Shown: one piece after another, positions 9,852 to 27,435 of the stretch
How positions within the stretch are numbered: position 1 is the stretch's first letter
Layout of the letters: each line of letters begins with the position of its first letter
Source: a virus
Reading direction: 5' to 3' (one strand)
Virus record (IMG/VR): IMGVR_UViG_3300042987_001913
Location: 1 to 41,618 of that record
DNA length: 41,618 nucleotides
Translations under genes and position numbers: made by a program
Notes under the pieces: model-generated
The model's database searches: none
Told to the model about the DNA's origin: nothing
What the model saw: the letters and a program-made list of their open reading frames with translations, nothing else

Positions 9852-10294
9852 ATGCAATTACATTTCGTCAAAAGCAGACAGCAAAGCTTCGCCAGCAATG
9901 TCGGGAAATGATGCAAGCAGGCATGGCGATTTCTGACATAGCCGAACAGCTTGGCGTTGTAGTCAGTACCGTCCACAATCACACGCGCGACTTAAAGCGA
10001 ACGAAAAAAACATATTGCGGATGCAAGCCCAAAACCTATAACGACTGGCTTGATCCCGACGACGAGGCTAACGTCCATCAATTTTGGGTACCATCGCCGG
10101 AAGAAATTGCACGAGTTGGTGAGGAGCTACGGAAGCTGCGAAAGCAACGCGAGGAAGAAACGGAGCTGACAATCCAAAAAATGGAGCGACTTGGCGACGA
10201 GCGCCGGTGGGCAAAAGCGGCGGTCAAACGTAATGCGAAAAGTCTAGCTAGGCGTATAGCGTCGAGCAGCGGCCAGCCGGACAGCGGCCAGTAA
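9848..10294 (+). CDS. helix-turn-helix regulatory protein
   Basis: A 148-aa protein whose ATG overlaps the preceding stop (ATGA). Residues about 8-45 form an HTH of the resolvase/sigma-like type: AKLRQQCREMMQAGMAISDI, then AEQLGVVVSTVHNHTRDLKR. The middle has a short Cys pair (YCGCK). The C-terminal half is a charged coiled coil (IARVGEELRKLRKQREEETE). The last 51 bases overlap the convergent integrase gene. It may regulate integrase or the lysogenic state. The HTH is clear; the target is not. Confidence 0.6.
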   Translation: MNAITFRQKQTAKLRQQCREMMQAGMAISDIAEQLGVVVSTVHNHTRDLKRTKKTYCGCKPKTYNDWLDPDDEANVHQFWVPSPEEIARVGEELRKLRKQREEETELTIQKMERLGDERRWAKAAVKRNAKSLARRIASSSGQPDSGQ

Positions 10295-11305
10295 ATGATT
10301 GGAATGCTGATCCAAATGGCCGTATCTTTGCGAGACCATGCGAGTGTCAGTATGTCCCATCAATGCTGACACGGTGGCAATATGGCTGCCGGCCAGTAGC
10401 GACTCAGTCGCAAATGTGTGCCGATAAGCATACAGCGTGAGCCCGTCTGGCAGCTTGAGCCTCTTTCGCAGCCGGCGAAATCGCTGCTCGGCGGTATTTT
10501 TCTTCCAGGGATCGCCATCCGCTGTAGTGAATAAGTGATCTTTGCAGCGACTGGCGAGCAGTATGCGTGTCAGCGTCTGTAGACACGGGTTGAGGTACAC
10601 TTTTAGGTGACGGCCTGTGCGCTTTGCTGTTTTGTGGCTGGCAAAAGCCCAGGCAGTACAATCTGGCAGCACATTAACGCGAGTAACCTCTCGGATTTGC
10701 TGCGGTCGAGCGCCACACTGCATTGCGATTAGAAACAGCCCAAAAGACTTGTCGTCCACGCACTTCATAGTCTCGGTAACCAGCTCGGAGTGTGTGCTGG
10801 AATCGATCGTCACCGCCCGCGGAGGCCCCTCGCTTACCGAGAACGCAAACAGAGGATTCTTGCTTACCCTACCAGTGCCGTGGGCCCAGCGCATCACTCG
10901 CTTAATCGCCGCCGCCGCGTCCCGTCTGGTAGATTGTTTCCAGGTCTTAGGCTCGCCTTGCGTGCCGTTCTTTCGCAGTCTTCCAGGCTTAGGCTCATCG
11001 AGCCACTTGGCCACCATGCCGGGCGTAAGCTCGATCGCGGCCAGGCCATCAGCCGCCGGCAGAAACGCAGCCAGGTAGCCACCCACTTGGTTTAGCTTAC
11101 TCTCTGGCAACAAATGAACATGCTCCTGCAGCCAGGCTTCGGCCAAGACGGCAAATGAAGACCGGTCGCTGATCGACTGCAGATCGAGCATTTGAGCCCA
11201 CTGGGTATGGGCCTTTGTTTCGTCAGGATCGAGGCGAATAAATCGGCCAGCGCCGTCTTTGACGTACCAACAGCCATGAGAAGCACGATAGAAGGGTTTT
11301 CGCAT
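10244..11305 (-). CDS. int: tyrosine-recombinase integrase
   Basis: A 353-aa protein with a CGGAG SD about eight bases before the ATG. The N-terminal part (1-160) holds arm- and core-binding domains, including VRWAHGTGRVSKNPLF-like helices. The catalytic domain has Arg200 (CGARPQQIREV), Lys in the beta-hairpin near 225, Arg295 (LYAYRHTFATE), His318 (ALMGHTDTRMV) and Tyr328 (SQRYGHLDQ). The usual box-II His (H-x-x-R) is Tyr292 here, a variant common in planctomycete-type recombinases by family knowledge. It catalyses integration at attP, which lies about 150 bp upstream of its start. It is transcribed towards the control genes. Confidence 0.92.
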   Translation of the reverse strand: MRKPFYRASHGCWYVKDGAGRFIRLDPDETKAHTQWAQMLDLQSISDRSSFAVLAEAWLQEHVHLLPESKLNQVGGYLAAFLPAADGLAAIELTPGMVAKWLDEPKPGRLRKNGTQGEPKTWKQSTRRDAAAAIKRVMRWAHGTGRVSKNPLFAFSVSEGPPRAVTIDSSTHSELVTETMKCVDDKSFGLFLIAMQCGARPQQIREVTRVNVLPDCTAWAFASHKTAKRTGRHLKVYLNPCLQTLTRILLASRCKDHLFTTADGDPWKKNTAEQRFRRLRKRLKLPDGLTLYAYRHTFATESLLAGSHIATVSALMGHTDTRMVSQRYGHLDQHSNHLLAAVRLAAARRYTPS

Positions 11306-11385
11306 TTTACTGACTCCGCGCGAGAGCCAATGTTAGCGATTCCGCTGGACACGTTTGGTCAGAAGTGCCACAGGCTGCGGCACTC

Positions 11386-11407
11386 TTTGGTGCCATTTTG
11401 GTGCCAA
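11386..11407 (+). repeat. paired arm-type repeat on the integrase side of attP
   Basis: Two adjacent 11-bp units, TTTGGTGCCAT and TTTGGTGCCAA. The same pair recurs at 11589-11610 on the other side of the tRNA-derived core, as expected for integrase arm-binding sites. Confidence 0.7.
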
Positions 11408-11454
11408 GATTTTCGGGCACCGAAGAAATCTTGCGTATTTGCAAGGGATTTTAA

Positions 11455-11496
11455 TGGGCGAGGAGGGACTCGAACCCCCGACATCTACTTTGTAAG
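11455..11496 (-). other. attP core: 3' half of a tRNA-Val(TAC) gene
   Basis: On the minus strand the bases read anticodon loop CTTACAA (anticodon TAC), stem AGTAG, variable loop, a T-arm with GGTTCGAGTCCC, and acceptor end CTCGCCC plus discriminator A. That is the anticodon-to-3'-end half of a tRNA-Val. The 5' half is missing: the bases before the loop do not pair with AGTAG, and no D-arm follows. This is what a phage att core looks like when it restores the tRNA gene on integration. Together with the flanking repeats and the neighbouring integrase, it defines attP. The intergenic stretch 11306-11632 holds nothing else that I recognise as a gene. Confidence 0.85.
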
Positions 11497-11588
11497 CGAC
11501 AGAATAGCAGCACAAAACATCAAAATCTCTGGGTTTTTAGCGCATCCAGCCCGCGCAAAGGTGTGAAAAACGTGTTAGTTAGCGGTGG

Positions 11589-11610
11589 TTTGGTGCCAAA
11601 ATGGTGCCAA
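11589..11610 (+). repeat. paired arm-type repeat on the structural-gene side of attP
   Basis: Units TTTGGTGCCAA and AATGGTGCCAA, near-identical and in the same orientation as the pair at 11386-11407. The two pairs flank the core at roughly 50 and 90 bp. Confidence 0.7.
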
Positions 11611-11632
11611 GGATTCGTATGCACAAGATGTT

Positions 11633-12109
11633 TTAGAGGCGATTCCTTCCCCAATGTTTTTCGGCTTCCTGTAACGCGAGATTAGGCTTGCCTAGCTTTT
11701 GGTTGACCGCATTATGTATGCGAACCGTCCATTCAAAAAACTCCGCAGCAGATTCTAGGTTAGGCATATTACCCGGTAGTGTCAGCAAGTCGCGAAAGGT
11801 ACCTTTGCATGAGCAGCCGAAGCTGGGGATTCGCGCGATCCACTCGTCTAGCCATTTGGCTGTATCTACTTTGCTCCATTCCGCCGGCGCGTAGCTGTGC
11901 AGCTCTGACCATAGGCCGCGAAATCGCTCTATTCGATCCCTGGCTAGTTCCGCTGGGTTTCTATAGTCGACAGGCTGACCAGGCCCGCGCCCAGCCTCCC
12001 AGGCTGACCAGTAATCCTGTCGAGTGCGGCACAGCTCAAGCCACCTGTCGGTCTTGTGAACGGCATGTCTGGCGCAGTAGCCAGCAGCTGAGCAAGCGCA
12101 TTCGGTCAT
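11633..12109 (-). CDS. Erv1/ALR-like sulfhydryl-oxidase-type protein with CxC in place of CxxC
   Basis: A 158-aa protein. The C-terminal half reads like the Erv1/ALR FAD-binding core: PSFGCSCKGTF (Cys99, Cys101), then LESAAEFFEWTVRIHNAVN, QKLGKP, and a final EKHW. Trp127, His132, Asn133 and Asn136 match W-x4-HNxVNxxLGKP of that family. The active-site pair is Cys-x-Cys, not Cys-x-x-Cys, and no second shuttle disulfide is obvious. The N-terminus has CACSAAGYCARH, a CxC-x5-C-x2-H cluster that may bind zinc. It overlaps the Cys-rich tail-protein gene by four bases and ends the virion operon. Disulfide formation in that neighbour is attractive but unproven. Confidence 0.5.
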   Translation of the reverse strand: MTECACSAAGYCARHAVHKTDRWLELCRTRQDYWSAWEAGRGPGQPVDYRNPAELARDRIERFRGLWSELHSYAPAEWSKVDTAKWLDEWIARIPSFGCSCKGTFRDLLTLPGNMPNLESAAEFFEWTVRIHNAVNQKLGKPNLALQEAEKHWGRNRL

Positions 12110-13350
12110 TCAGTGATCTCAACCGAAAAGTTGTACTCGTATAACTCGCCATCTACGCCAACAGTATTGTCATGGTAACCCGTTTCGGAGCATAAAAACG
12201 CCTGAGTGCTAAAGATCAGTTGCCGTTCCTTGAACGGTGGAAACCGCAACAGAATCGGATTACAGGTACTGGTTGCCAGAGAGATGGCATTGGTGCGACT
12301 GTTATTGGGCCCAACGGTCACAAAATCAAGCGTTTCATCGTAGGCGATGTCGAAGCCCAGATAGTCACCAAGGCCAGTTGGGTCTAGCGTCGAAAATGGA
12401 AAGCTAGTGCCGTAGTCTGTCCAAAAAACCATAGCTAATCGCATTTTTGGATAGCCTGCGCCATAGTTGTCGCCGTAGGCGTAATCGCAATCGAGCCTCC
12501 AAAGATAATAGAAATCGTCTCGAGTAATGGTGTCGCTGAGCCAGACGCGCTTTGCGGCAGAATCAATGATACTTGGCGTATCAAAATTGGTGCCTCCAGT
12601 CTCCCATTTTGCATTCAGAGTAAAAGACGCAGGTATACCAGGGCAGTCTCCGCCATTGGTCAACGTCAGCGTCAACGTATCTGGCCAGCACTTGACGATA
12701 GCGCTGTAGCCAAACCCCTCCACGCAGAGACATTCGCAATATGGGCAGTTGCGATTGTCGATCCAATGAATTTCGTAAAGCCAGTCGTCAAAGTCCCCCT
12801 CGAGGAAGCTGAAATTGCCCAGACCGTCAAAGCATCTTGCCGCTCCGGTGTCGTCGATGCAGATTTCAGCTTCATAAATGTCGTCTGGCAGTCCTCCCTG
12901 TAATGCGGTGAATGCTGTAGCCTGCACGCCAGGCACGTAGCATAGGCCACCAATCACAGGATTCTCAGTTCCCATGGCAAAACCAGAGACGGTCTTGGTA
13001 TTGCCGCTGCCCTCAATCTCGAGAGTAACATCAAAACCACCTGGAGACGTTTCTGTTAATGTCCATGTCGCTTCGACAGCACCGTCCAGAGGATCGCCTG
13101 CACGCACCTTGTAAACTTTGCCATCCGCTGGATTAGCCAGTACAAAATTGGAACGGAAAGATCCCAGAGGAGCCCATGCCGGGTGGCAAATTGTGGTGGC
13201 CAACACGCCAGGCGTAACGCAGACAAGAACACCGTCTACGATCTCCCACTCACCAGATTCCACACTCCAACCCGAGCCAATTTCGGATCGCTCGAAATAG
13301 TCTTCGCCAAGAAAGCAAGTACGTTGACAGCAGCAGCGTTTAGTGGGCAC
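12106..13350 (-). CDS. cysteine-rich tail-tip or receptor-binding candidate
   Basis: A 414-aa protein from GTG 13350, with AGGAGG about six bases upstream. It opens with a Cys cluster (KRCCCQRTC), then a jelly-roll-like region (GSGWSVESGEWEIVDGVLVC). A second cluster, RNCPYCECLCVEG, lies in the middle. I count about 18 Cys in all, very high for a phage protein. No enzyme motif or signal peptide is seen. It lies at the distal end of the tail genes after a hub-like protein, where tail-tip or receptor-binding proteins are usual. Disulfides or bound metal may stabilise it outside the cell. The next gene is the Erv-like protein. Confidence 0.55.
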   Translation of the reverse strand: MPTKRCCCQRTCFLGEDYFERSEIGSGWSVESGEWEIVDGVLVCVTPGVLATTICHPAWAPLGSFRSNFVLANPADGKVYKVRAGDPLDGAVEATWTLTETSPGGFDVTLEIEGSGNTKTVSGFAMGTENPVIGGLCYVPGVQATAFTALQGGLPDDIYEAEICIDDTGAARCFDGLGNFSFLEGDFDDWLYEIHWIDNRNCPYCECLCVEGFGYSAIVKCWPDTLTLTLTNGGDCPGIPASFTLNAKWETGGTNFDTPSIIDSAAKRVWLSDTITRDDFYYLWRLDCDYAYGDNYGAGYPKMRLAMVFWTDYGTSFPFSTLDPTGLGDYLGFDIAYDETLDFVTVGPNNSRTNAISLATSTCNPILLRFPPFKERQLIFSTQAFLCSETGYHDNTVGVDGELYEYNFSVEITE

Positions 13351-13353
13351 GCG

Positions 13354-14796
13354 CTAGCCTCCTATCTCGCTGGCTGCGCAGCACCTGTCATCGGCAGCCC
13401 AATGGCAGGGAGTTAGCGCACCTTCTTCTGCACCTGCATCGCGCGACAAGGCAATACCTTGGCTTGCCCACCCCCAGACCCCCTCAAGATCAGCTCCATC
13501 AAGATCAAAGACGCAGCCAGAATGATCAACAACGTCGACCTGAGTGCCGATCAACTCAGGCTGCTCGCAAGGAGCCACTTGCACGGTGACCGTAGCTATC
13601 TTTAAGCCAAAGTACGGCAGATCCGCCCCGCTGGATGCCGTTCGCAACGAATCGATGACATACTGAATCTTGGCACCACCACCGCCACCAAAGATGCGAG
13701 GTAATGTTGGCCAGTCGATTTCGGCATACGAGTGACGCACGACGGTTTGCATTCCGCGGTAGCCATCGCTCGACCACTGAACTTCGGTGACCTCCTCGCC
13801 ACAGTGAAACTCTAAAGCGCCGGCGTAGACTGAGCCCCAAGGAGATGCCAACGGTTTGAGCAGCCCGACAAAAGCGTCAGCTATTTCCTCTGCTCGCGCG
13901 GTGCGGTCGGCAGAATTGTCATCCCAACTAAACATGGTGTCTTCAATGGGCCAGGATGTACCAGCCAGGCCACCAGACGATAGACTAGCCTCCTCGACAT
14001 CTGGCTGCTCCAGCCATGGCTGCTCGCCTTTGCCCGGCACTTTCTGAAACGTCACAGACACTTTCGCTGGATAATTCACATTTGCAGGTGATTCGGGTCG
14101 AAAGTCCCACAGCACGCGGCTCTTATTGGCTTCCCGTAGCGCAGACAAGCCGCTCTGCGAATCGCTCAAATGTACGATCGAAAACTCTTCGGTGAGCGGA
14201 TTGAACACCGAAGCACACCCGATTGCTGTCAGCACCTGGTTAATCGCTCGCCACGCTGACATGCCATAGAAATCAAGGTTCTCCGGTGTCGACGTTGCGG
14301 TTATCGCTGCCACTGAAGGTATCGTGCCTGGCAAAAGCGACCACAGATCCTGAATGATTTCGTCCCATGTCCACGGAGTGTCGCTGTTTAGCGTGTCTTG
14401 AACCCATTCACTATCCGTGCCTTTGCGGAAGTTATAGCGTTTGTTGCCGGCGATCCGCTCAAAAACATATCGCCTGTCCGCTAGCACGATCCAGTGAGGG
14501 GGCTTAGATGAGTCTCGTGATACAGCTTCGGTGCGAGTTACATAGTAGTCAGGAAACGTGAGCTTGCCATCTTCATGAGTAATCTCAAGCTCAAGCGGGC
14601 CTGTTAAGTCAATCGCGTGTAGCGACTCGTCGCTCAGCAGAAAATGGGCTTCGCCGTAGGGGCGACCTCGAGGGCATGTCAATCCGTTGACCAGCCCATG
14701 CCATTTCATTGGCCAGTTGTAAGCCGCTGCTGTTTTGGCGATGTGTGCAGGATGTAGCACTCGCTCGCCACCAACTGTCCATATGCGTTCTACCAT
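13354..14796 (-). CDS. tail hub/baseplate-like protein
   Basis: A 480-aa beta-rich protein. It includes LELEITHEDGKLTFPDYYVT and RAINQVLTAIGCASVFNP-type segments, a pattern seen in siphophage tail-hub proteins where small beta barrels surround a helical insert. A Gly-run (IFGGGGGAKIQ) forms a linker near residue 375. The C-terminus ends with paired Cys (DDRCCAAS). Start and upstream stop share one base (TGATG). It follows two small unknown genes after the giant MuF fusion. The family call is weak and rests on position and fold-like pattern. Confidence 0.5.
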   Translation of the reverse strand: MVERIWTVGGERVLHPAHIAKTAAAYNWPMKWHGLVNGLTCPRGRPYGEAHFLLSDESLHAIDLTGPLELEITHEDGKLTFPDYYVTRTEAVSRDSSKPPHWIVLADRRYVFERIAGNKRYNFRKGTDSEWVQDTLNSDTPWTWDEIIQDLWSLLPGTIPSVAAITATSTPENLDFYGMSAWRAINQVLTAIGCASVFNPLTEEFSIVHLSDSQSGLSALREANKSRVLWDFRPESPANVNYPAKVSVTFQKVPGKGEQPWLEQPDVEEASLSSGGLAGTSWPIEDTMFSWDDNSADRTARAEEIADAFVGLLKPLASPWGSVYAGALEFHCGEEVTEVQWSSDGYRGMQTVVRHSYAEIDWPTLPRIFGGGGGAKIQYVIDSLRTASSGADLPYFGLKIATVTVQVAPCEQPELIGTQVDVVDHSGCVFDLDGADLEGVWGWASQGIALSRDAGAEEGALTPCHWAADDRCCAASEIGG

Positions 14797-15138: not shown

Positions 15139-15372
15139 CTATTGCCCTCGTGTTGCGTCGTACCATGCTTTCAGCACCAACTCAGCCCAGTCTTGTATCT
15201 CTGGAGTTGGGGCCGGTTCGTAGTTGTACATGATGATTCGCCCAAGACTCTCTTGCGGCTGCTGGCCGGATTCAATGAGCTTGAGATTCCTGTGGATGAC
15301 TTGCATTGCCGGATCCTGCGAGCGTTGGAGCAATTCTTCCGTTTTGGCTACTGCCTGCTGCAATGGGTTCAT
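15139..15372 (-). CDS. small hypothetical protein overlapping the end of the MuF fusion
   Basis: A 77-aa helical protein starting MNPLQQAVAKTEELLQRSQD, with GAGGA about ten bases before the ATG. Its first 101 bases overlap the 3' end of the 2447-aa gene in another frame, far more than the usual 4-8 nt here. An internal Met (MQVIHRNLKL, 15303) is an alternative start that reduces the overlap. Either a true overlap or a frameshift near the end of the long gene would explain this. Confidence 0.5.
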   Translation of the reverse strand: MNPLQQAVAKTEELLQRSQDPAMQVIHRNLKLIESGQQPQESLGRIIMYNYEPAPTPEIQDWAELVLKAWYDATRGQ

Positions 15373-18300
15373 GTTTTTTGGCTATCCTCACATTGGGGTG
15401 AGCGGCTGTCGGTATAAACCATTGGGGGCCACCGCCGCTGACATAATGCTGCTGCTTTGGATCGCTCCATGTATCGATTGTTGGTGCGGCTGTAGAAAAT
15501 AGGTAGGTCATGCGATCAAATTTCGCCGTTTTAGTCTCAAATCTCGTTTGCTGCCTCGGCAATATTGGCTGGTTGGGCAGCTGCCACGCGGTCGCACGAT
15601 CGTGTATGCCGAGATCCTGCGGTTTGCTTCCCTCTACGGAAAAATAGCCTCCGCGAAATCCTCCATGTGCCTGCCATTGAACCAGCGTGTCAGGTGGCGG
15701 AATAGTAGGCGGCGGGCCAGCGATCACAGGCTTGGACAGATCTATGCCATCCAACATGCCCTTGTGTCGTTCTGGAGTAAGGGGTTGGAGCCTGCCTGAC
15801 CTGTGATCATAAAACGTCGCTTGGTTCATCAGATAGTGTGCGGCAACATGCTGACGTGCCGCTCGATGCTGCGGGCTATCTCCAACTTGAGCCGCCAATC
15901 GCATAGCCTCCGGTGTTGGCGGTTGACTCCAATGCGGCTGCAAGTGGCTCATGGGCTGCGGTGGAGCCGGCGGAGAGGGTTGACTGGTCTGTTGAATAGG
16001 CTTTGGCGGCGCTGCTGTCTGTGCCTGTTGCGGTGGCTGCTGGGGTTGCGTGGCGGACTGATTTTGATTTGCCCAGCGGTGATGCTGGTTCAGGGTGTAT
16101 GTCACTCCATTGATTACTTTTGTAACACCCGGCACCAGGCTAAGTTTCTTGGGTCCGGTGCTTTCTTTGAGTTTGGCCAGCCTAGCTTCTTTCTCTTTGA
16201 GCGTCTGCTCGTGACGAAATGGCAAGGCTTGCTGCTGTTGCATCTTGGACACATCCACGTGGAAATCCTTGATTTGTTGATCAACATTGGCTGGCAGCTT
16301 GCCAATTTGCCGGGCAGCATATTCGAGCGACTGCAAGGAATCGCCAGATTTATACGTTTGTCCGCTCGGGCCAACTAATTGCAACATGCCGTCCTTCCTG
16401 ACCGATACCGGCATTCCGCGATATTCCGCCACTCGAATGACAGGCTCGCCATACCGACCGTTTTCGGAGTGGGCTTCCTTCGCTTTGGCGATCGCCTGCG
16501 ATAGTGCCTCTGCTGCTGGCTGCCGTTCGTTGAAATGATCACTACCTACGCTCAAAGTAAAGTCTTGACGCTCCTGAAGATGCTGGGCGTCGCGCTCAAA
16601 GTCGCGTTTCTTTGTTTCCAGGGCTGTCAGTGTTTTGCCGGCGTTCGCCAGTGTATCTCCGATGCGAATCTGGTCGCTCTTGTGGCGCGATTGCGACCTG
16701 CGCAACCTTTTGACTTCATCCTCGAGAGACACTCGCTCGAGCATGGCCTCATCGCCTGTGGCCACGGCCACCATTTCCTCTGGGCTAAGCGTATCGGTTT
16801 CCAAGTCCTTCATCGTTCTCGCGCCGCGGCCACGCATATATTGATTGATAAAATTGCTCTTGTTAGCGACGATCTGCCAGAACAGGTTGTCTGCCGAGCC
16901 CTGCTGCACGTACTTGTAAACATCTAGGTCGGTGTTCTTATTGCCAGACCGATAGCCGCGGCCATCGCGCTGCTCAATGAATGCTGGCACATACGGTATG
17001 TCCAGGTGATGGATGGCTTTCAACCGATCTTGGACATTAGTGCCAGTGCCCAGTCGCATGGTCGATCCAAGCATGATGCGAACGTCTCCGCGTTTGGCAG
17101 CCTGCTGGGCTTCTTGCCGTTTGACATCGGTCATGCCGGGATCGCTAAAATCGACAATCTGCTCATTGGGAATACCGGACTCTGTCAGCTTCTTGCGAAT
17201 GTCTTTAAAAATACTGAATCCCGAGTCTGCCACATCTATCGTGAAATCGGACTCATTGTCATCCTCTGCAGGCTTGTCCTTGTCCTTCTTTGACTTCTTT
17301 CTATCATGCACGCCCAGATCGCTAAATATGCACTGACTTTGGCCTGGGTGCTCGTTGTAGATTTTCAGCACATTGCGGATGCACTGGTTTACCTTGCTAT
17401 CAGGATGATCCTCGGCGTGCAGATCTAGCAGGCGCATATCGATCGAGCCAAGCTTGGCATCGTTGCAAACATTGAGCATGTTATCAGCCCCTTTTTCGGC
17501 GCGCCGCCCCTTGCCTTTCATATCCTCGGCGCGTTTGTGGATGCTGTCCATCATTTGCTTGATTGGCTCGCTGACGGGCGAAATAACGACATGATCGTGT
17601 TTGGCCGGTCGTGGAATTGCCGGCTCGCCACTAGGCAGCTTTTGATTGTCGACCAATTGCACATCCATGAACTCGCTGGCCATGTGGCGCAGCTCTGGCA
17701 GATTGATAAACTCGGCAAATCGCGTTGTCGGCGAGACATCGCCATTAAGCTTGAACTCCATTCGCGTGACGGTGTCGCCAAACGTGTCTTTCCAGGCATC
17801 GAAACGATGTAAGCCTCGCTCTTGCAATGTGTCATACTGCAAATATCGCTGCATGTTGAACAGCTCGCCCATGGTGTTGGCGATCGGTGTGCCGGTGGCA
17901 AAGACTACGCCGCGACCCTTATTTTTATTTAGTAGCCAGCGGGTTCTCATCAGCATGTTTGTGGCGCGTTGCGAGCGTCCGCTGGGAATGCCTTTGATGT
18001 CGCCCTGTCGACTGTAGCATGGCAAAGACTTGAATTTATGGGCTTCGTCTACCATGAGCATGTCGATGCCGCTGTTCTCAAAATAGATGTCGTCTTTATC
18101 TTGCTCTGCTAAGGCCGCTTTGAGTTGTGCCTCTAGTTTCTGTTTTTGGTTTTCCAGTCTTTTTACAATGCGGCTGCTTTGCTTTTTCTCTCCCGCGGAA
18201 ACCTTTTCGGATTCTGCGGCTATGATCGACTGAGACAGTTCGTCGATTTCATCTTGAATAAACTTGGCCGAGGTCTCGGGTCGCATTTTCATCGCGTCGA

Positions 18301-21300
18301 GATGATCATGCGTCATAATGACGATGTCATAGTCGCCTGTAGCGATAGCATTCAGTGTCTGCTGGCGTTTGTCCTTGGAAAACATAGTAGCCGTCGACAG
18401 AATCTTGGCGCCAGGATAAAGCGACTGAGCTTCGGCGGTAATTTGCTCGATATTCGCTTTGAGGCAGCAGATGGCTGGCTTTTTAGCGAGCCCAAGACGC
18501 CGCAGCTCCATCGCGGCTGCAATCATGCTGGCAGTTTTGCCGGTGCCCACCTCATGAGCCGCCAGACCTTTGCCGGTCGTGATCACGCGCCAAATAAAAT
18601 CCTTCTGCATCTGGCGTAGCTCGACAGGATCGTCGGTGCCTGGCCATTTGCTGATCATACCAGGCAAAGTCAAATGCGAGCCATCGAAATGGCGTGACAC
18701 TATGTTGTTGTAGTTGTCGTTATAAAACCGATGCAGCTGAGCGCGCCGGTCGTCATCCTCCCACACCCAGTCTTTGAATCTAGCCTTGAGTTCCTCTACT
18801 TTTTCGCGAGCCTTTTCGGTGGCTTCCTGCAACACTGGATGCGTGCCATCTTGCTCGTACGCGCTGCGAATGACTATTGCCTTGCCGTTGAGCGCCGACC
18901 CGAGGATGTCCATAAAGCTGACCGCAATGTCGCCGGCATCATTTTGCACACCCCAGACTTCGCGGTTGGAAGATCGATAGTGCACGCTATTGTTAATTGC
19001 GGTCGCGTACCACTCGTTCAAATTGTCGGCGTAGCGAATGGCAAAATCATCTTCGCGAGCCCCAAGCACATCAGCCGCAAACTGCTTCACAATGCTAGCC
19101 GGCACCCATGGCGATCCAACCTTTACCCCAATATCTTCGGCATCAATGTCTTCTGGCTGATTGGCTTCGAGCGCTTTGACATTCACATCAAAAGCGGGAT
19201 CGCTCGCAGCTGCGACTCGCGCCTCTTGCAGTTTGCGGCGAACATTGCCGCTTAGGTACTCAGCTGACTCCACCCACTTGCCACCGTTGGGCTCGCGGAA
19301 CGCCAGGCCACCGTCGATCAGTTCCGATTCCACTTCCTCGGTGGATTTACCGGTGAGCTGGGAAATGCGATTTACGTCGAGAAAAGCTGATTCGTTGAGC
19401 ACGATGCCGGTAGCGTCGGACACACTCGATGCGGAATCGGCTTTAATGTTGGGTCGGATGGTGTCTCGGCTGAATATGTCAGCTTTGTCTGCCTGTTTGG
19501 TTGTCGAGTTGTATCGCTCAAGCGACAGCAGAAACTTACCCTCCGGATCAAGCTTGAAGCTGTTGCGGTTCTTGGCGTCATGCAGCAATCCGTACTGCCC
19601 AACATATTCGTCATAGGCTCTGTTGAGTTCTGCGCGGGCGCTCTCGATGCCCTCACCAGCTTGCTGGGCTGCGATTAAGCCACGCGCAGCATCACGAATG
19701 GCCATTTGGCCTATAACTCGCTCGCGTTGATCTGCGCTCAAATTAACTGGTGTCAGTGCGCCACCAAAATGCTGATAGATTGCGCCATCTTTGTTGACCA
19801 GCTGGCCTTCAGCGTATTTCTGGTCAGCCTCGATTCGTTGCTGCTGCTCTGGCTTGTCAGCTGCCGGTTCTTTGTCAGCCCAAAATGCACCAGCGGGTAA
19901 ACGATCGATGGCTTCTTGGAGTCTTTGCTCGTAGTCGTCGGTACGAGAGACATTCATCTGGCCCGAGGTGTACATGGAGCCGGTGCGATCGAGCGTGCCC
20001 AAAATCTGATCAGGATGCTCTGCGAAATAGCGATTGACTTGTATCGGGTCGCCGCCAGCAGGATCTGGCACACTGACGATGTCATCCCACTTCGGTGCTG
20101 GTACTCGTTTGCCATCTTCCCAGTGATAGAGCCGTCCGAGAGCATCGACCGTCACGCCGGTGAAACCTGGTTGTTTCGGTTCAGCCTCGCTAGGTGTTTC
20201 TTCGGTGACCGGTGGTATGTCGGGATGCTTTTTCCGCAGGATTAGCATATCGGTGACGACAGATGTCCCTGCGTTTTCTTTGTGCGCGTCGCCAGGGAAT
20301 CGCACTGCAGCCACAAGTTCAGCTTCGGAGTTGATGTAATTCCTGACTTTTGGATCAAGCTTATCCATGGTGCCGGCGCTGGTCAGGTGCATGATTAGGC
20401 CACCTGGCTTGGCCGTATCGACTGAGCGCATGAAATAGTAGTCATGCAGCAGTGGCTTATTACCTTTGTATTTCGGGTCTTTGATGCGTATCTCACCCGA
20501 GAATGGCACATTGGTGCTGACAATATCGTAGAAGTCGTCTGGCGTCTTGAAGTCTTGGAATGGCGAAATCTGTACATTGGCGGACGGATAAAGCTGCTTA
20601 GCGAGGCCTCCCGTCAGCTGATCCATTTCTACAGCAGTTACCGTCGTCTCTTTTGCCAGACTCTCGGGCATCATGCCGATGTAATACCCAGAGCCTACAG
20701 CTGGCTCCAGAAATCGGCCCCCTTTGAAACCCAGACGCTCGGCCATTTTCCAATTGGCGTCCACAATGTCGGGGTGCGTGTAGTGGGCATTGATCGTAGA
20801 CGCGCGGGCACTTTCGTATTCCTTGTCGCCCACTAGGCCACGTAACTCTTCGCGCTCTTTTGCCCACTGGTCATCTCGCCATGAGTAGACAAACAGCTGC
20901 GGAAACTGACCCCAGCCGACATACTTGGATAGCTTTTCTTGCTCTGCTTTCGTGGCGGGCCTGTTTTCAAGCTCCAACGTCTTGAGCGTGCGGATTGCAT
21001 CCACGTTGTCGCGAAATTTGGCCTTTAGGCCAGACTTAAAAAAGTCGCGTCTATCGTAGTGCCAGTTGCCTTCGTTAGTGGGTGGCTTAAGCTTCCTTTT
21101 CGGCTGTTTGACTGCTGGAGGAATAACGGGTGGCTTAGGCTCGACGGCAGGCTGAGAATGAGCTACTCGAGGTGCTGGACCTGCAATTGCGCGAGGCTGC
21201 TGGCCGACCGGTGCCGTTTGCACGATGACTTTTTTGTACGTGACTGCTCCGTTTTCTTCCGAGCGTGTAATGATGCCTTTGTCTAGCAAACTCTGCACTG

Positions 21301-22615
21301 CGCGTCGGTGCCGACCACCCATGAAGATGTCTTGACCAGGCGCGAATGAACGCCCCTCTTTGCCGATTGAGGCAATCACACCGCGCTGGTCGTCGCTCAG
21401 CTTGAGTTTTGATAAATCAACCTCGGAACCAGCTGCAAATTTCTTGCCAGTGGCAATCTCTTTCTTCTGCTCGGCGTTTGCCTTATCAAACTCGGAGGAC
21501 GGGATAAACTCGCCACCCACGTAGGCCTTGCCGGCGATCATGAGCGGATTGCTTTTGGTGTAGCCCGATGGCGCCCTGTAGGCACCCATGCGAACGAGCG
21601 ACATAGCCACAAATCCGACTTTGCCGCGGCTGCCCCAGTCTGGATTGGAATCAAACGGAATATGCGCCAAGCGGTATTCAGGCTGCAGTGGTGGCCTGCC
21701 AGTGCGTAACCACTCTTGAGCTTCTTTGACTCCATCGCGGGCTGCCTGCTCAAGAGTTAGCAGTCTCACAGAGCAGCGGCAGTTGTAGTCCCACGGCGGG
21801 GTGAAATGATCCCACACAGGATCGTCTACACGATACACGTTGGTCCCGTTAAGACCTAGCTTTTCCAATTCTCGATGCGTATGGCGAGCGCGAGCATCAT
21901 GCACTGCCACGTAGGCCTGGTAAGGAAATGTCGCTTTAACCAGCGGATTTTGACGCAGCGTCTCGCGGCCATCGCGGATGGCAGACTGCATGTTAGTCCG
22001 GTAGACGTTTTCAAGGTGGCCTGCGGCTATTGGACTGGTTCCTAGATGCTCCTCGACTCGCTTGCGAAAGCTTCCGAGCGAGGTGCCTTCTATCATGTCG
22101 TCCACTAAAAACTGGCGCATCCGGTCGATCGTGTCTTCGCTCAAACCGCCAGCAATTTCAAATGCCTGTGCCTTGGCAGCTGAACTAGCGGCATCAAACT
22201 GCTCGCGGGTCATAATGCGACGCTCAAGCAATCGCTGCATCGCGTTTTCGATTATCGGTAGCTTCAGCTCCGGCTCGGTATCGAACATCTTAAATAAGCT
22301 GTTGTCTGCTGGCGGAGTCGGAGGAGGTGGCGTGCGGCGAACGGTGGTTTCAAATTCGCGCTGCAGCCAGGCAGGAAACCGCTTGGCCACATCGTCAAAG
22401 CCATACACCCATGCGGATAGCACTGAATCGCTAATGTGCTGTGCCAGCAGAGCATCAAACCGCTGCAGCTGTTCTCGCACTAGCCGCAGTGTCTCGCTTG
22501 GCCAGTAGTGCATTTCTCGGGCATGAATCACCGCCTGTGTGATTTGATCGAGTATTTCATCGGAAATGCCGATCGCACCTACCAATGCCGTGTTTACGAT
22601 TTTATTCAGCTGCAT
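15272..22615 (-). CDS. MuF head protein fused to N6-adenine methylase and SF2 helicase (polyvalent protein)
   Basis: A 2447-aa protein. Residues about 120-300 are a MuF/SPP1 gp7-type head morphogenesis domain: RTNMQSAIRDGRETLRQNPL, then AVHDARARHTHRELE, then the end motif PPWDYNCRCSVRLL. About 560-790 is an N6-adenine methylase with FLEPAVGSGYYIG (motif I, near 638) and STNVPFSG (motif IV, near 702). About 1330-1930 is an SF2/SNF2-like helicase: HEVGTGKTASM (Walker A, near 1357), VDEAHKFK (near 1523) and EQRDGRGYRSGN (motif VI, near 1885). A coiled coil and a Pro/Gln-rich tail follow (about 2180-2270). The methylase-helicase half resembles the P1 DarB class of injected anti-restriction proteins. 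MuF tethering would place it inside the capsid. The domains are clear; delivery and function are inference. Confidence 0.85.
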   Translation of the reverse strand: MQLNKIVNTALVGAIGISDEILDQITQAVIHAREMHYWPSETLRLVREQLQRFDALLAQHISDSVLSAWVYGFDDVAKRFPAWLQREFETTVRRTPPPPTPPADNSLFKMFDTEPELKLPIIENAMQRLLERRIMTREQFDAASSAAKAQAFEIAGGLSEDTIDRMRQFLVDDMIEGTSLGSFRKRVEEHLGTSPIAAGHLENVYRTNMQSAIRDGRETLRQNPLVKATFPYQAYVAVHDARARHTHRELEKLGLNGTNVYRVDDPVWDHFTPPWDYNCRCSVRLLTLEQAARDGVKEAQEWLRTGRPPLQPEYRLAHIPFDSNPDWGSRGKVGFVAMSLVRMGAYRAPSGYTKSNPLMIAGKAYVGGEFIPSSEFDKANAEQKKEIATGKKFAAGSEVDLSKLKLSDDQRGVIASIGKEGRSFAPGQDIFMGGRHRRAVQSLLDKGIITRSEENGAVTYKKVIVQTAPVGQQPRAIAGPAPRVAHSQPAVEPKPPVIPPAVKQPKRKLKPPTNEGNWHYDRRDFFKSGLKAKFRDNVDAIRTLKTLELENRPATKAEQEKLSKYVGWGQFPQLFVYSWRDDQWAKEREELRGLVGDKEYESARASTINAHYTHPDIVDANWKMAERLGFKGGRFLEPAVGSGYYIGMMPESLAKETTVTAVEMDQLTGGLAKQLYPSANVQISPFQDFKTPDDFYDIVSTNVPFSGEIRIKDPKYKGNKPLLHDYYFMRSVDTAKPGGLIMHLTSAGTMDKLDPKVRNYINSEAELVAAVRFPGDAHKENAGTSVVTDMLILRKKHPDIPPVTEETPSEAEPKQPGFTGVTVDALGRLYHWEDGKRVPAPKWDDIVSVPDPAGGDPIQVNRYFAEHPDQILGTLDRTGSMYTSGQMNVSRTDDYEQRLQEAIDRLPAGAFWADKEPAADKPEQQQRIEADQKYAEGQLVNKDGAIYQHFGGALTPVNLSADQRERVIGQMAIRDAARGLIAAQQAGEGIESARAELNRAYDEYVGQYGLLHDAKNRNSFKLDPEGKFLLSLERYNSTTKQADKADIFSRDTIRPNIKADSASSVSDATGIVLNESAFLDVNRISQLTGKSTEEVESELIDGGLAFREPNGGKWVESAEYLSGNVRRKLQEARVAAASDPAFDVNVKALEANQPEDIDAEDIGVKVGSPWVPASIVKQFAADVLGAREDDFAIRYADNLNEWYATAINNSVHYRSSNREVWGVQNDAGDIAVSFMDILGSALNGKAIVIRSAYEQDGTHPVLQEATEKAREKVEELKARFKDWVWEDDDRRAQLHRFYNDNYNNIVSRHFDGSHLTLPGMISKWPGTDDPVELRQMQKDFIWRVITTGKGLAAHEVGTGKTASMIAAAMELRRLGLAKKPAICCLKANIEQITAEAQSLYPGAKILSTATMFSKDKRQQTLNAIATGDYDIVIMTHDHLDAMKMRPETSAKFIQDEIDELSQSIIAAESEKVSAGEKKQSSRIVKRLENQKQKLEAQLKAALAEQDKDDIYFENSGIDMLMVDEAHKFKSLPCYSRQGDIKGIPSGRSQRATNMLMRTRWLLNKNKGRGVVFATGTPIANTMGELFNMQRYLQYDTLQERGLHRFDAWKDTFGDTVTRMEFKLNGDVSPTTRFAEFINLPELRHMASEFMDVQLVDNQKLPSGEPAIPRPAKHDHVVISPVSEPIKQMMDSIHKRAEDMKGKGRRAEKGADNMLNVCNDAKLGSIDMRLLDLHAEDHPDSKVNQCIRNVLKIYNEHPGQSQCIFSDLGVHDRKKSKKDKDKPAEDDNESDFTIDVADSGFSIFKDIRKKLTESGIPNEQIVDFSDPGMTDVKRQEAQQAAKRGDVRIMLGSTMRLGTGTNVQDRLKAIHHLDIPYVPAFIEQRDGRGYRSGNKNTDLDVYKYVQQGSADNLFWQIVANKSNFINQYMRGRGARTMKDLETDTLSPEEMVAVATGDEAMLERVSLEDEVKRLRRSQSRHKSDQIRIGDTLANAGKTLTALETKKRDFERDAQHLQERQDFTLSVGSDHFNERQPAAEALSQAIAKAKEAHSENGRYGEPVIRVAEYRGMPVSVRKDGMLQLVGPSGQTYKSGDSLQSLEYAARQIGKLPANVDQQIKDFHVDVSKMQQQQALPFRHEQTLKEKEARLAKLKESTGPKKLSLVPGVTKVINGVTYTLNQHHRWANQNQSATQPQQPPQQAQTAAPPKPIQQTSQPSPPAPPQPMSHLQPHWSQPPTPEAMRLAAQVGDSPQHRAARQHVAAHYLMNQATFYDHRSGRLQPLTPERHKGMLDGIDLSKPVIAGPPPTIPPPDTLVQWQAHGGFRGGYFSVEGSKPQDLGIHDRATAWQLPNQPILPRQQTRFETKTAKFDRMTYLFSTAAPTIDTWSDPKQQHYVSGGGPQWFIPTAAHPNVRIAKKHEPIAAGSSQNGRIAPTLAGSGNASHPQESQAH

Positions 22616-22623
22616 CGTGCCAC

Positions 22624-22866
22624 TCAGTCTTTAATGTTGAATCCCGGCGGTTTTTGCGCGTTGTCGTTGGTGGTGGTATTGTCGTCGTCGCTTACGAATA
22701 GCTCATGCGGTACGTCGACTACGAGGCCTTGCGCCTGAATATCTGCTACCTGCTTAATCAGCCTTTGCCGAAACTCGGCCTCCTCGGGAGTATCTGGCGT
22801 CTTGGGCTGCTTGCCCTGCATGATCTCGACGAGAATCTTTTCAGCTTTGTCCGTGGGAATGCTCAT
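22624..22866 (-). CDS. small hypothetical protein between the two giant virion proteins
   Basis: An 80-aa protein starting MSIPTDKAEKILVEIMQGK; its ATG overlaps the stop of the portal fusion (ATGA). It is helical, with an acidic, Asn/Thr-rich tail (VSDDDNTTTNDNAQKPPGF). I do not recognise it. Its place between portal and MuF genes suggests a small head-vertex component or a chaperone for one of the giant proteins. Confidence 0.55.
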   Translation of the reverse strand: MSIPTDKAEKILVEIMQGKQPKTPDTPEEAEFRQRLIKQVADIQAQGLVVDVPHELFVSDDDNTTTNDNAQKPPGFNIKD

Positions 22867-25800
22867 GTTTGCCCTTTCGCAATAAAGTCTTGCCATAGTT
22901 TGGGATCATGAATCTGCAGCTGGCCACCATTTTGCTGAGAAGCCACTTTGACGACTCCGTTAGTGGTGTCCCACAATGCAAACTCATCAAAGAATTTACC
23001 ATCTACGGCTTTGGGCACAATTTGCGACACACTTGCATGGCAGTTGCGCAGCATGTCTTCGGGCGGCAACCTGCCAGTTTTCTTGGCCCGTTCGATATTT
23101 CGCTGAATAGCAACCTCGGTTGGGACTGTCACATAATGCCCAATGACTTTCTGCCCAGCTTCTCGCATTTTCTGGACCTTACGCTGCAGCTTGTCTAGGC
23201 CTGAATCTCCGGTGCCGTCGAGCAGTGTGTTGTACTTGCCTTGGCTGCCTTGCTCTTGGATTAGGTTAGCTATGTAGCTAGATTCCTCATGCACATGGCT
23301 GGCCGCTCGATGGTCGTTTGCTTGAACCATTTGTTGATATTCGGGCAGCATTCCCTTAATTGCATCGGAGTCGATATGCACAGTGTTGGCATCGATGGCC
23401 ACATGCCCACCATGCACAATCGAGCTTTTGCCGGACGCCGGCCCGCCGCCTAGCACGTAGGAAACAGGATTCTGTACTGGGGTCTTGCCCTCAAAGTGCT
23501 TGGCAATGATTTGCTGATGCAGCTTTTGTCGCTCGGGTGACCACTGGCCGTCCTTGGTGAACTGCTCCATGGTGTCGAGGCCAGCTGGATTGATCGCTCC
23601 AGGTGATACCGGCACTGGCTTTTTGGCGTCTCCAGTGGGCGGTGGCTGGTTTGGAGGTTGATTGGGTGGCTGCGGCGGCTGAGTAGCTGAAGTGGGCTGC
23701 GGTGCTGCTGATGCCGGTTGTGGCGCAGTAGCTACTGGCTGCGACGTAGGTGGCGCAGACGGCTTCGCGGGCACTTGTGCCGCTGGCTTGGATTGTGATT
23801 GGCTTGTGTTGCTAGCACCGCCACCTCCGCCACCTTTGCTGGTGAATTGACCACCACCTGGTCCTTTGCCCTTGTGCTCGTGGCCTGTCTTGTCAACGCT
23901 CATGCGAGTTGTCTGGCCACAGATAATGTGCCTAGCTACAGACTCGCTGGTGCTGGCATCGTCGTCGCTCAGTTGCCATTCACTTTTCTTTCCGCCGTAA
24001 TCTCGACTAACGCTCATGGCTAGGGCCTCGCTTCCCGCATCGCTCCACTGGTGGTTCTTGTCTTTAGTGACTGTTTCGGGCTCATCGATGAGTTGGCGTA
24101 CCGCCTCCAAGGTGGCGCGCTTGATTGATTCGCGATCCGCTTTTTTGGAAGCTTTGGCCAGCTCTGCGGCTTTAGCTTTGATCGTGTCTGCTACCTGGCC
24201 CCTTAAACCAGCCTCACGCTCAAAATCAGCTAGCGCTGTTCTGGCCGAGTCTCGTTTGTGTAAGTTCTTGTCGACGTTGAGCACATTGCCAGTCTCAGCT
24301 ACGCGCTCCGCTCGCCTCGAAGAACTTACCGCCGCAAAATCATTGGCTTCCTGTGCCAGTGCTTTGGCGATGTATGACTCGAGTTCTACTTCCTGGTCAA
24401 ATGTCGACTCTTCGCTTTCCCAATCGCCAAACAGATCAGTACCAGACTGTGTCACACTGCCAGCCCGCGCCATCTTCTTGGCTGCGGCTTCGATCTCGCG
24501 CGTGCTCCAGTCCTTGCCGTCGTCTTCGCGCTGGGCGATCTTTTTGAACAGCTTGTCCTGCAGATCATGCTTTTTCAGGTGCTTGGCCACTGCGACCGCT
24601 TTGTCTTCGTCTATCCGGCCTTGCGTGACTTCCTGAAATGCTTTTTCGCTTAGGTCGACTAGCTGCGAAGCATCGCTGGCTACTTTGCCGGTTAGCGAAA
24701 TGCCAGCGTCGCGAAAGTGCTCAATGTCGCGGCCAGAGTCGCGCAGGTACTTGGCGGCGTCGAGGGCAGTCCCGCGCCCTTCGGCGATGTTGGCCAGAGC
24801 CCCAACCGCGCGAGCCGTCTTGGCTGTTGGCGCGTCGATATAGCGGACATTAACGGAGTCGGTTCCGGTTCGATTAGCCAGTTCGTAGCGATGATGGCCG
24901 TTGACCACATAGTCCTTACCGCTGTCTGGATCACGCCAGGCGAGCAGCACACCGCCCAGCTCGGGATTCCACTTACTGGTGCCTTTCAGTTCCTCGCCAA
25001 TGCCAGTACCTTTATCAATCCCTTTAACCTTGTATTGAAATCGAGCCGGATCAACCCGCAGAGATTTGACTGGCACCGTATACACATCTTCACGCACCGG
25101 CGCCCGCGGCGTATCGTCCTCACGCCGGCCAGTTCGATGACGACCCTCTGTCAAGCGATTAGACAGCTTTTCAATGAGCGCCTGCTTGGTGGCTGCGCTA
25201 GCCTTGGTACCGTACTCCGCCTTGAGCTTATGCAACTGCGCCACGGTGAGTGTATTCATGTGATCCATGAGTGCCTTCATGGATTCTGGCGAGCGCGATC
25301 GATGGGCTTCGTCTACGCGATCCTTAGCAAGTGCGTAGGCTTCAGCTGTGCCTTTAGGTATGAAACGCCCATTCTTCCCTCGCGGATGGTCCGCTGGTGA
25401 CCACAAGGCCATACGTTTGGCCGATAGGATTTGGTCTAAGTTTTCTTCAGCATGATCGCCGTAAATCGCGGCTAGTAAGTCGGCCATGGCTTCGATGCGA
25501 TCATCATCGAACGCGTATTCGCCACCTTTGTCGTCTGTCTGCGATTCTTCCGGAGTATCCGGCTGTGCCGACATCCGAACGGCTTGCCTAGCGCGAGACA
25601 GCAGGTCCATGAGCTGTGGCTGCTGCTGCGATTGATCCGCCGGCATTTGCGGCATACTAGGCGCCATGCCTGGTTGCTGAAGACCTTGAGGTTGACCATC
25701 CAATCCCGGTAAACCACCAGCATTGGGGTCTCCCTGCTGCGCACCTGGGCCGGCGTTGGACTGCTGTTCCATGGCCTGTTCGGCCAGCGGCTTGTGCTTG

Positions 25801-26933
25801 ATCTCGTAGTCTGGAATCAAGCCAAAATTTAGCAAGCAGAGATTATCAAGCAGCTGCTCTTTCAAATCACAGACAATTTGCACAATCCATTGGTCGAGCG
25901 ACGCATAGAACGAGGCCATAGTGACGCGCTTGCTCGCCCAGGCGTCGCCTTCCTCCTCGGGCACCTCCAGGCCAGCGCGGATTTCTGCATCAAGATCCTT
26001 TGGATATTGCAAGATATGGGCTGGGTTCGAGGTGACAGTGGCTCGTGTTAGTGGCCACTGCTCATTTCCATTTTCGTCGCGCTTCGAGGGCCGAGTTGTT
26101 ACACCACCTGCTACTAACTGTTCAACAATCTGGCGAGCGATCTGTACGTTAGGCACAAATTGCCCATTAACAAGCGTCTCGCCGTCTGGATAACCGAGGT
26201 CGACCCCGCCGTAGGCATCTTTGTGCATAAACAACTGGCGAACGTCTAGGGCTCCACCCATGAACCACTTGCTAGCCCAGGGTGAATAGCAGCCCAGTAG
26301 TGCACTGACGCCGTAATGGTCGCCGTCTTCAGCGTTGAAGTTGTGAAAGAAGCAGTACGGAAACTGCAGATCCACATGGCCCGCATTGGCTTCGGAGTCG
26401 CGAATGCGCGTAATGCGCACGCCCCAAGGTGATTTGTCTGCTAGCAGCAGCCGACAGTCGGTAGCGTGCCTCGGCAGTAGTTTGTCGATCTCAGTTAGTC
26501 CGCTGCTGGAAAGCTTGAGTGTCACTTCACCGGCTGCCCATCCCCAGACTTGAGACCGCAGTAAAGCCGGCAGATAGTAGTTCCAAATCTTTTGCAGTTG
26601 GCGATAAATGAACTGGCCGATCTCGGGGTGAGAGCATCGCACACCTTCGGTCCAGACCTCACCTTCTTTGTAGCCAAACTCAGCTTTGCAAATAGGAGCG
26701 GATCGTTTCGATAGATTGAGCCTGATCTCGGGATCGATCAGCATGGCGTGAATGGTGGCAAACGAGAATGGCGGCAGGTCTCGAGGCTGCCGCAGCATAA
26801 TGTGCGGAATAGCTTGATAGCCGGCGCTAAGCGGATGCTCTCGCTGGACTGCTTGCTGAGCGCTGACAATCAAAGCCTGGCGTTTGGCCGACAGGTCTTT
26901 CTTTTTGGGCGATGCGGCTGCTGCTCTAGGCAT
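22863..26933 (-). CDS. portal protein fused to ParB-like and zeta-toxin-like kinase domains
   Basis: A 1356-aa protein from ATG 26933, overlapping the preceding stop by 8 nt. Residues about 20-400 look like a Mu gp29/DUF935-type portal: EIRLNLSKRSAPICKAEFGY, LHHN-type beta region, then EIRAGLEVPEEEGDAW and LDNLCLLNFG. A Gln/Gly-rich linker follows (about 390-440). About 560-595 is a SAP-like helix pair. About 615-735 is a ParB/Srx-type domain with VNGHHRYELA (677-686). A Pro-rich linker (about 1045-1110) leads to a zeta-type P-loop kinase: LGGGPASGKSSIV (Walker A near 1162-1171), HIDSDAIKGMLPEY, LLDGTGD. A zeta toxin phosphorylates a nucleotide-sugar in known cases; the substrate here is unknown. 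Attached effector domains on a portal are 'polyvalent' architecture. Confidence 0.8.
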   Translation of the reverse strand: MPRAAAASPKKKDLSAKRQALIVSAQQAVQREHPLSAGYQAIPHIMLRQPRDLPPFSFATIHAMLIDPEIRLNLSKRSAPICKAEFGYKEGEVWTEGVRCSHPEIGQFIYRQLQKIWNYYLPALLRSQVWGWAAGEVTLKLSSSGLTEIDKLLPRHATDCRLLLADKSPWGVRITRIRDSEANAGHVDLQFPYCFFHNFNAEDGDHYGVSALLGCYSPWASKWFMGGALDVRQLFMHKDAYGGVDLGYPDGETLVNGQFVPNVQIARQIVEQLVAGGVTTRPSKRDENGNEQWPLTRATVTSNPAHILQYPKDLDAEIRAGLEVPEEEGDAWASKRVTMASFYASLDQWIVQIVCDLKEQLLDNLCLLNFGLIPDYEIKHKPLAEQAMEQQSNAGPGAQQGDPNAGGLPGLDGQPQGLQQPGMAPSMPQMPADQSQQQPQLMDLLSRARQAVRMSAQPDTPEESQTDDKGGEYAFDDDRIEAMADLLAAIYGDHAEENLDQILSAKRMALWSPADHPRGKNGRFIPKGTAEAYALAKDRVDEAHRSRSPESMKALMDHMNTLTVAQLHKLKAEYGTKASAATKQALIEKLSNRLTEGRHRTGRREDDTPRAPVREDVYTVPVKSLRVDPARFQYKVKGIDKGTGIGEELKGTSKWNPELGGVLLAWRDPDSGKDYVVNGHHRYELANRTGTDSVNVRYIDAPTAKTARAVGALANIAEGRGTALDAAKYLRDSGRDIEHFRDAGISLTGKVASDASQLVDLSEKAFQEVTQGRIDEDKAVAVAKHLKKHDLQDKLFKKIAQREDDGKDWSTREIEAAAKKMARAGSVTQSGTDLFGDWESEESTFDQEVELESYIAKALAQEANDFAAVSSSRRAERVAETGNVLNVDKNLHKRDSARTALADFEREAGLRGQVADTIKAKAAELAKASKKADRESIKRATLEAVRQLIDEPETVTKDKNHQWSDAGSEALAMSVSRDYGGKKSEWQLSDDDASTSESVARHIICGQTTRMSVDKTGHEHKGKGPGGGQFTSKGGGGGGASNTSQSQSKPAAQVPAKPSAPPTSQPVATAPQPASAAPQPTSATQPPQPPNQPPNQPPPTGDAKKPVPVSPGAINPAGLDTMEQFTKDGQWSPERQKLHQQIIAKHFEGKTPVQNPVSYVLGGGPASGKSSIVHGGHVAIDANTVHIDSDAIKGMLPEYQQMVQANDHRAASHVHEESSYIANLIQEQGSQGKYNTLLDGTGDSGLDKLQRKVQKMREAGQKVIGHYVTVPTEVAIQRNIERAKKTGRLPPEDMLRNCHASVSQIVPKAVDGKFFDEFALWDTTNGVVKVASQQNGGQLQIHDPKLWQDFIAKGQT

Positions 26934-27435
26934 TTCTATGTTTTTCCTTAGCAATCTGGCTGTCGACATACCGCTTGAGTGCAATGGACCGCGCTTGCTC
27001 TGCCATGGCCTTGCTGCCTGTGGCCAGCAGGGTCAAGTCATGGACCGTTTGGTAGTCCGAATTTGAGTAATTACCCGCGTTCAAAATCTGCTGTGCCTGG
27101 ACGCGATCGATATTGGCCACCAGCGCCACTTTTTGAGATTCCGTAAGCCCGAACGGATCTACGCCGAACCAATGGGCAATATCTGCGTCGATTGCATGTC
27201 TCTTGCGCAGTAGGTCGACGTACAGGCAGATCGCTCGCCATGCCTGCCACGCGCCTGAGAGCGTGACATTTAGTCCACGCCTGGCGAGGTACTGGGCGAC
27301 AGATGTCAAGAACGGCACGTTTGGCTGCAGCGTATTGCCCACGCTGAGCTTGTGCTCGATCTCCCAGTCCAATAGCTTGCGGTGCAACTCCACTGTTGTG
27401 ATTTCGACCGAGCTAACACCATCAGTCAGCAGCAT
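26926..27435 (-). CDS. hypothetical protein upstream of the portal fusion
   Basis: A 169-aa helical protein: LHRKLLDWEIEHKLSVGNTL, then SVAQYLARRGLNVTLSGAWQ, and a basic tail (SQIAKEKHRNA). It starts three bases after the preceding stop and overlaps the portal gene by eight. I do not recognise the family. Its place between tail and portal genes, and its size, could suit a neck or head-tail adaptor protein. Confidence 0.55.
   Translation of the reverse strand: MLLTDGVSSVEITTVELHRKLLDWEIEHKLSVGNTLQPNVPFLTSVAQYLARRGLNVTLSGAWQAWRAICLYVDLLRKRHAIDADIAHWFGVDPFGLTESQKVALVANIDRVQAQQILNAGNYSNSDYQTVHDLTLLATGSKAMAEQARSIALKRYVDSQIAKEKHRNA

Follow-up and report, generated by a model that had tools for sequence, protein, structure and literature searches.

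A phage portal gene with C-terminal ParB-type and zeta-kinase modules as the possible trunk of a polymorphic-toxin-like system

We find that the portal gene of the metagenomic virus record IMGVR_UViG_3300042987_001913, a 41.6-kb stretch of DNA that we analysed over its full length and call the window, encodes a single protein composed of a portal domain, a short joint that we term seam motif A, a weak SAP-like helix pair, a ParB/Noc-type module, a further joint (seam C), a low-complexity linker and a zeta-family kinase. We suggest that this gene provides the trunk in a polymorphic-toxin-like system with exchangeable cargo, and put the probability of this reading at roughly 0.58. An earlier note, made from the DNA letters, could name no precedent for the order portal-ParB-zeta. 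The order is not unique, as portal-ParB with a second zeta-like kinase (zeta2) is found in three other contigs (L043, L150 and L151). That note had also missed a small coupled partner gene, a neighbouring gene that joins MuF, DarB and Ntox46 domains, and the exchange of cargo among relatives; with these observations the protein is better read as part of a toxin-carrier system with exchangeable cargo than as one isolated fusion. As in polymorphic toxins, a conserved trunk carries an exchanged C-terminal effector, and a small downstream gene travels with the tip, here for zeta, zeta2, Ntox46 and DarB.

Portal searches returned about 25 other distinct viral contigs with homologous portals (41-60% identity). 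The portal C-termini of these relatives carry ParB alone or together with DarB, zeta, zeta2 or unknown tips, a DarB-type methylase-helicase, a 2H phosphoesterase, PBECR3, LPD3, or no cargo at all (L028, L029 and L034). The commonest combination is portal followed by ParB in one frame, which occurs in at least eight other contigs. For the portal tip of L016 Pfam returned nothing, and we leave it without assignment, its ADP-ribosyltransferase-like look being a judgement by eye. The replacement of cargo is seen most directly in pairs of relatives. At the DNA level L037 and L041 match at mostly 95-100% over the portal body, at about 60% in their differing cargo and at 97.5% again downstream, while L030 and L037 combine portals of about 77% similarity with cargo mostly 90-100% alike. 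The portal tree calls for at least six changes for ParB presence, four for DarB and three for kinase tips. Judged by these comparisons, the portal C-terminus in this lineage is a carrier of exchangeable cargo.

The kinase is accompanied by a small gene that overlaps the portal stop. We searched 25,588 small open reading frames (ORFs) in 163 loci with an iterated profile of this family (about 60-80 residues), blind to position, and obtained 65 homologues, all of them in the 84 loci with a zeta gene and none in the 79 loci without one; many of the 163 loci were retrieved via the zeta domain, so that relatives in zeta loci are over-sampled and the informative half of this result is the absence from the other 79. 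Directly behind the zeta gene and on the same strand lie 53 of the 65, most within 20 bases. In cyanophage PSS2, a culturable relative with the MuF-zeta form, the homologue of the small gene follows at a distance of 426 bp. The family has no match in Pfam or the PDB, and tblastn against annotated phages gave none. We considered epsilon and Arc1 as its identity and rejected both, given the lack of a Pfam or PDB match and the absence of the Arc1 double-tyrosine motif from our alignment A8. The same layout of cargo followed by partner gene holds for four cargoes, namely zeta, zeta2, Ntox46 and DarB. Among 23,704 small ORFs the Ntox46 partner had two matches only, both adjoining Ntox46, and six of the seven DarB-partner homologues lie directly downstream of DarB-carrying ORFs, on MuF or portal alike. 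In several relatives that lack such cargo (e.g., L008 and L044) the portal and MuF genes stand close together and leave no space for a partner gene. One DarB-partner homologue is found within the portal-DarB frame of L041/L064, in another reading frame, at about residue 605 (L064, 11879-12160), and is perhaps a remnant of an earlier cargo insertion.

The gene next to the portal gene encodes the MuF-DarB-Ntox46 protein of 2447 residues, and in other phages too the MuF head protein beside the portal carries modules that are also found on portals. DarB is found on MuF in the window and in L016, and on the portal in at least six others; in L062 an Ntox46 tip (61% identical) sits directly on MuF without DarB, and the DarB of L062 is on the portal instead. 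The joints are shared as well. Seam E stands ahead of DarB, on portal or MuF, in all cases but one, and seams B and C stand ahead of tips and stand-alone effectors. In four loci (L007, L016, L032 and L043) direct DNA repeats coincide with seams; off the seams we found two short repeats in L030, upstream of the portal, and one in L007, and inside the window no direct repeats were found. In L016, seam C is present in two copies of 260 bp and 92% identity, one within the portal gene and the other where the zeta gene behind it begins. Here a displaced zeta cassette, with a possible start codon of its own, stands behind a portal-ParB gene that has a different tip, and the zeta partner gene then follows (8869-14334). 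Recombination across this repeat would, from the arrangement of the sequences, produce the layout of the window. With about 40% protein identity to them, the seam C of the window has diverged from the two L016 copies, and thus the window is not a recent product of that event. In Rhs and CdiA systems orphan tips are exchanged across repeated joints. The repeated seam of L016 ahead of a displaced tip cassette resembles this arrangement, but differs in that the trunk is a phage portal gene and the displaced cassette may have its own start codon. That the portal ring serves as the trunk of a recombining toxin-immunity system, in which cassettes of seam, effector and partner move freely between portal and MuF and re-arm the heads of one lineage, we regard as an even bet. 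As a separate observation, across several loci 25 of 29 seams of types A, B and C have a methionine at most about 12 residues ahead of them, as if the modules had once begun as separate genes.

The fusion is read from one open frame on the minus strand (22863-26984) of 1373 codons with no stop. ATG 26933, which the earlier note had given as the start, is the best start, with AAGGA upstream and an overlap with the stop of the preceding gene (ATGCCTAG). Internal translation starts that could release a free kinase were set aside, as the gene has only weak Shine-Dalgarno-like matches at such positions. The portal domain that the note named is likewise recovered as a portal fold. The AlphaFold model, built with a 22-sequence alignment (predicted local distance difference test, pLDDT, 79), matched portal or portal-vertex entries in all 50 PDB matches listed, the best being G20c (E 4.8e-12). 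A Pfam scan of the window protein gave no portal match, the curated Portal_Mu cut-off not being reached, and relatives 54% and 49% identical over the portal region do reach that cut-off (PF06074; E 1.3e-9 and 2.7e-8). A PDB profile search with the portal alignment gave no matches, so that the fold was detected by structure prediction only. In solved portals the C-terminus is directed into the head.

The kinase tip matches the Pfam zeta toxin family (E 5.1e-26) and the zeta toxin structure 1gvn (2.8e-10). It retains the Walker A lysine and an aspartate aligned with D67 of zeta toxin, and has an aspartate at the position of E116; the roles of D67, which we take to be catalytic, and of E116 are assumed here. 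The suggestion of a zeta-type P-loop kinase is thereby confirmed. Its profile also matches PezT and AvrRxo1. Zeta and PezT phosphorylate nucleotide sugars and AvrRxo1-like kinases phosphorylate nicotinamide adenine dinucleotide (NAD); as both are matched, the substrate may be either a nucleotide sugar or NAD. A scan of 48 ORFs with the same zeta family revealed MuF in 18, a PF04860 portal in 4 and a PF06381 portal in 1. Since the family is found on MuF and on two further portal families, the portal-kinase fusion probably arose more than once. A single ORF of L091 (4693-9912) holds, in tandem, two kinases of the zeta type and two ParB modules.

For the middle of the protein the assignments of the earlier note stand in part. 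The SAP-like helix pair gives a weak signal in relatives and does not reach the Pfam cut-off there (E 0.042 and 0.003). The ParB-type domain is well founded as a fold. The module has PHROG matches, is 45-71% identical among portal relatives, and its model (pLDDT 71) matches Noc/ParB crystal structures across the N-domain and the helix-turn-helix (7nfu Noc, E 2.4e-4); a PDB profile search with the ParB alignment returned no matches, so this fold too was detected by structure prediction only. The DNA cutting that had been considered for it is not borne out in the same way, and a DdrB-like nuclease is not favoured, as the fold search returns ParB/Noc with a helix-turn-helix. Given this resemblance, binding or clamping of DNA is the better guess from the model. 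The module is like the ParB/Noc switches that use cytidine triphosphate (CTP) in its predicted N-domain and helix-turn-helix, and unlike them in being fused to a portal. By eye, the family has [AV]NIAEG where we would expect ENxxR, which we take to be the CTP-hydrolysis motif, and this motif therefore looks degenerate or changed. The same ParB module is also present in very large proteins near tail genes in phages without this portal (L005, cyanophage P-SCSP1; L003, Ruegeria phage 45A6; L006, a MedDCM phage).

We infer a course of events that runs from packaging of the cargo to its release, injection, toxicity and neutralisation. The N-terminal portal domain would build the packaging ring, with the DNA-binding ParB/Noc-type module and then the zeta-family kinase on its C-terminus, and the product of the small gene overlapping the portal stop, an antitoxin or chaperone cognate to the kinase, would protect the producing cell from it. 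The cargo, in 12 copies, would be located around the inner face of the ring in the virion; it could be cut free at flexible seams or linkers and reach the next cell along with the DNA. There the kinase would phosphorylate a small molecule, either a nucleotide sugar or NAD, and halt host growth or block competitors, while ParB would bind host or incoming DNA. Cassettes of seam, effector and partner gene would recombine between portal and MuF carriers and between phages.

Several points weigh against this proposal. The zeta partner has no detectable similarity to epsilon or Arc1, and neither a protease nor a protease site for release of the cargo was identified in our analysis. A cargo of about 110 kDa on every one of the twelve subunits is unusual, and assembly might be hindered unless the cargo is trimmed or only a part of the subunits are full length. 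Furthermore, DarB, no obvious toxin, has a partner too, and the partners may be packaging chaperones rather than immunity proteins. This last point also belongs to an alternative in which injected cargo helps the phage DNA early in infection, DarB acting against restriction, ParB binding phage DNA and the kinase weakening the wall or removing immune signals, with the partners as packaging chaperones. Polyvalent proteins are explained in this way in text passages of PMC5512222, and the DarB-like module in the neighbouring gene and the ParB modules in very large proteins of other phages fit such a role. The strict linkage of the zeta kinase to its coupled small gene, and the Ntox46 tip with its partner, are on the other hand the usual toxin-immunity layout, and we consider the helper role unlikely, although it deserves to be kept in mind.

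It is improbable, in our view, that the fusion is structural only, with ParB gripping DNA at the vertex during packaging, the kinase a degenerate spacer and no cargo delivered. Fusion to the portal does fix the cargo at the packaging vertex, and portal-ParB is the commonest combination among relatives, but cargo is replaced wholesale between near-identical portals and is absent from some relatives (L028, L029 and L034), so that assembly can do without it, and the kinase retains its active-site residues. Least of all do we credit an artefact by which the contig alone would bring portal and kinase together. The record is of metagenomic origin, and a seam repeat such as that of a relative could in principle collapse, but the seam of the window is diverged from both L016 copies, many independent contigs show portal-ParB, three others show portal-ParB-kinase, and portal-zeta occurs in two portal families besides this one; the partner gene and the stop of the fused gene also share an ATGA overlap. 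With homologous portals in about 25 other viral contigs an assembly error is very improbable, and we reject a chimera on the recurrence of the fusions and the divergence of the seam. We favor the portal as trunk of a polymorphic-toxin-like system.

Effector fusions to virion proteins are known. Text passages of Iyer et al. 2017 (PMC5512222) already contain MuF-zeta and portal-PBECR/2H fusions and cassette-like small frames, and effector fusions to portals and MuF, including MuF-zeta, are also covered in passages of PMC9503650. The earlier suggestion of a phage portal with fused effectors of the polyvalent kind is supported, as disparate effector domains reside on one protein encoded in a virion gene cluster, and the portal-effector protein is most likely carried at the head vertex. 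Portal-ParB-zeta, portal-DarB and cognate partners for portal cargo are not described in the text passages of PMC5512222, and in open-access texts, figures aside, we found no report of portal-ParB-zeta or of a portal toxin-antitoxin. The nearest tested precedents are the MuF toxins with adjacent immunity genes (Jamet et al. 2017, PMC5576092; Bxa, PMC11699363) and the zeta-like AvrRxo1 with its downstream antitoxin Arc1 (PMC4938570). With the MuF toxins our system shares a head-vertex trunk, temperate phages and, as candidates here, a variable C-terminal toxin and a small downstream immunity gene, but here the portal itself is the trunk, and cargo is shared or exchanged between portal and MuF within one phage lineage. 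With zeta, PezT and AvrRxo1 it shares a P-loop kinase core with the Walker A lysine and catalytic aspartate, and with AvrRxo1-Arc1 the small gene downstream of the kinase (an antitoxin there, a candidate here). It differs in that the kinase is a portal or MuF tip and in a partner family for which no resemblance to an antitoxin of solved structure could be detected and in which the Arc1 tyrosine motif is missing; nor is this partner of the epsilon type, as it lies downstream and has no Pfam or PDB match.

While MuF effector fusions are recognised, the portal, an essential dodecameric motor part, is not treated as a carrier of polymorphic toxins in the literature that we found. If our proposal is true, each infected cell could receive from the phage particle a set number of toxin copies, carried at the exit channel, and unnamed small genes beside such portals would become recognisable antitoxins. 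The tight linkage of cargo and partner could then serve as a rule for finding further toxin-antitoxin pairs in viral metagenomes.

Table 1. Coordinates in the window of the portal gene, its modules and the neighbouring genes.
Feature	Position	Strand	Basis
Portal-ParB-zeta protein, likely coding sequence	22863..26933	-	ATG 26933; open frame extends up to TTG at 26984
Portal domain, residues 33-413 of P0001	25746..26888	-	Hidden Markov model of 22 relatives; AlphaFold model and PDB fold search; relatives match Portal_Mu
Seam motif A (MALWSPADHPRGKNGRFIPKG), between portal and SAP/ParB module	25347..25412	-	Found in 13 further places, for the most part right before SAP-ParB
SAP-like helix pair (weak)	25155..25253	-	Pfam SAP score of relatives under the cut-off
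ParB/Noc-type module with helix-turn-helix, residues 632-975	24060..25091	-	PHROG matches, alignment, predicted structure
Seam C (MSVSRDYGG...MSVDKTGHEHKGKGPGGGQFTSKG)	23850..24017	-	Homologous to 92%-identical direct repeat of L016
Gly/Ser/Pro/Gln linker	23586..23849	-	Read from sequence
Zeta-family kinase tip, residues 1134-1372, Walker A GGGPASGKS	22869..23585	-	Pfam and 1gvn matches; alignment
Candidate cognate antitoxin or chaperone of zeta kinase, 80 residues	22624..22866	-	ATGA overlap with portal stop; 65 homologues, all in zeta loci
MuF (residues 2-334), seam E, DarB-type methylase-helicase (500-2154), seam B, Ntox46 tip (2241-2447)	15272..22615	-	
Candidate cognate partner of Ntox46 tip, 77 residues	15139..15372	-	ORF with 48% identity immediately (0 bp) behind MuF-Ntox46 of L062
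Candidate partner of DarB module, 113 residues	14796..15137	-	Seven homologues

The window looks like a temperate tailed phage. It contains an integrase, RecE/RecT-like recombination genes, a replication initiator, a terminase, and decoration and major head genes; the MuF gene lies directly downstream of the portal gene, and terminase and capsid genes belong to the same cluster. The sole relative from a genome collection, L044, is a contig of a metagenome-assembled genome of an uncultured member of the Pirellulaceae, which gives a weak lead to a planctomycete host.
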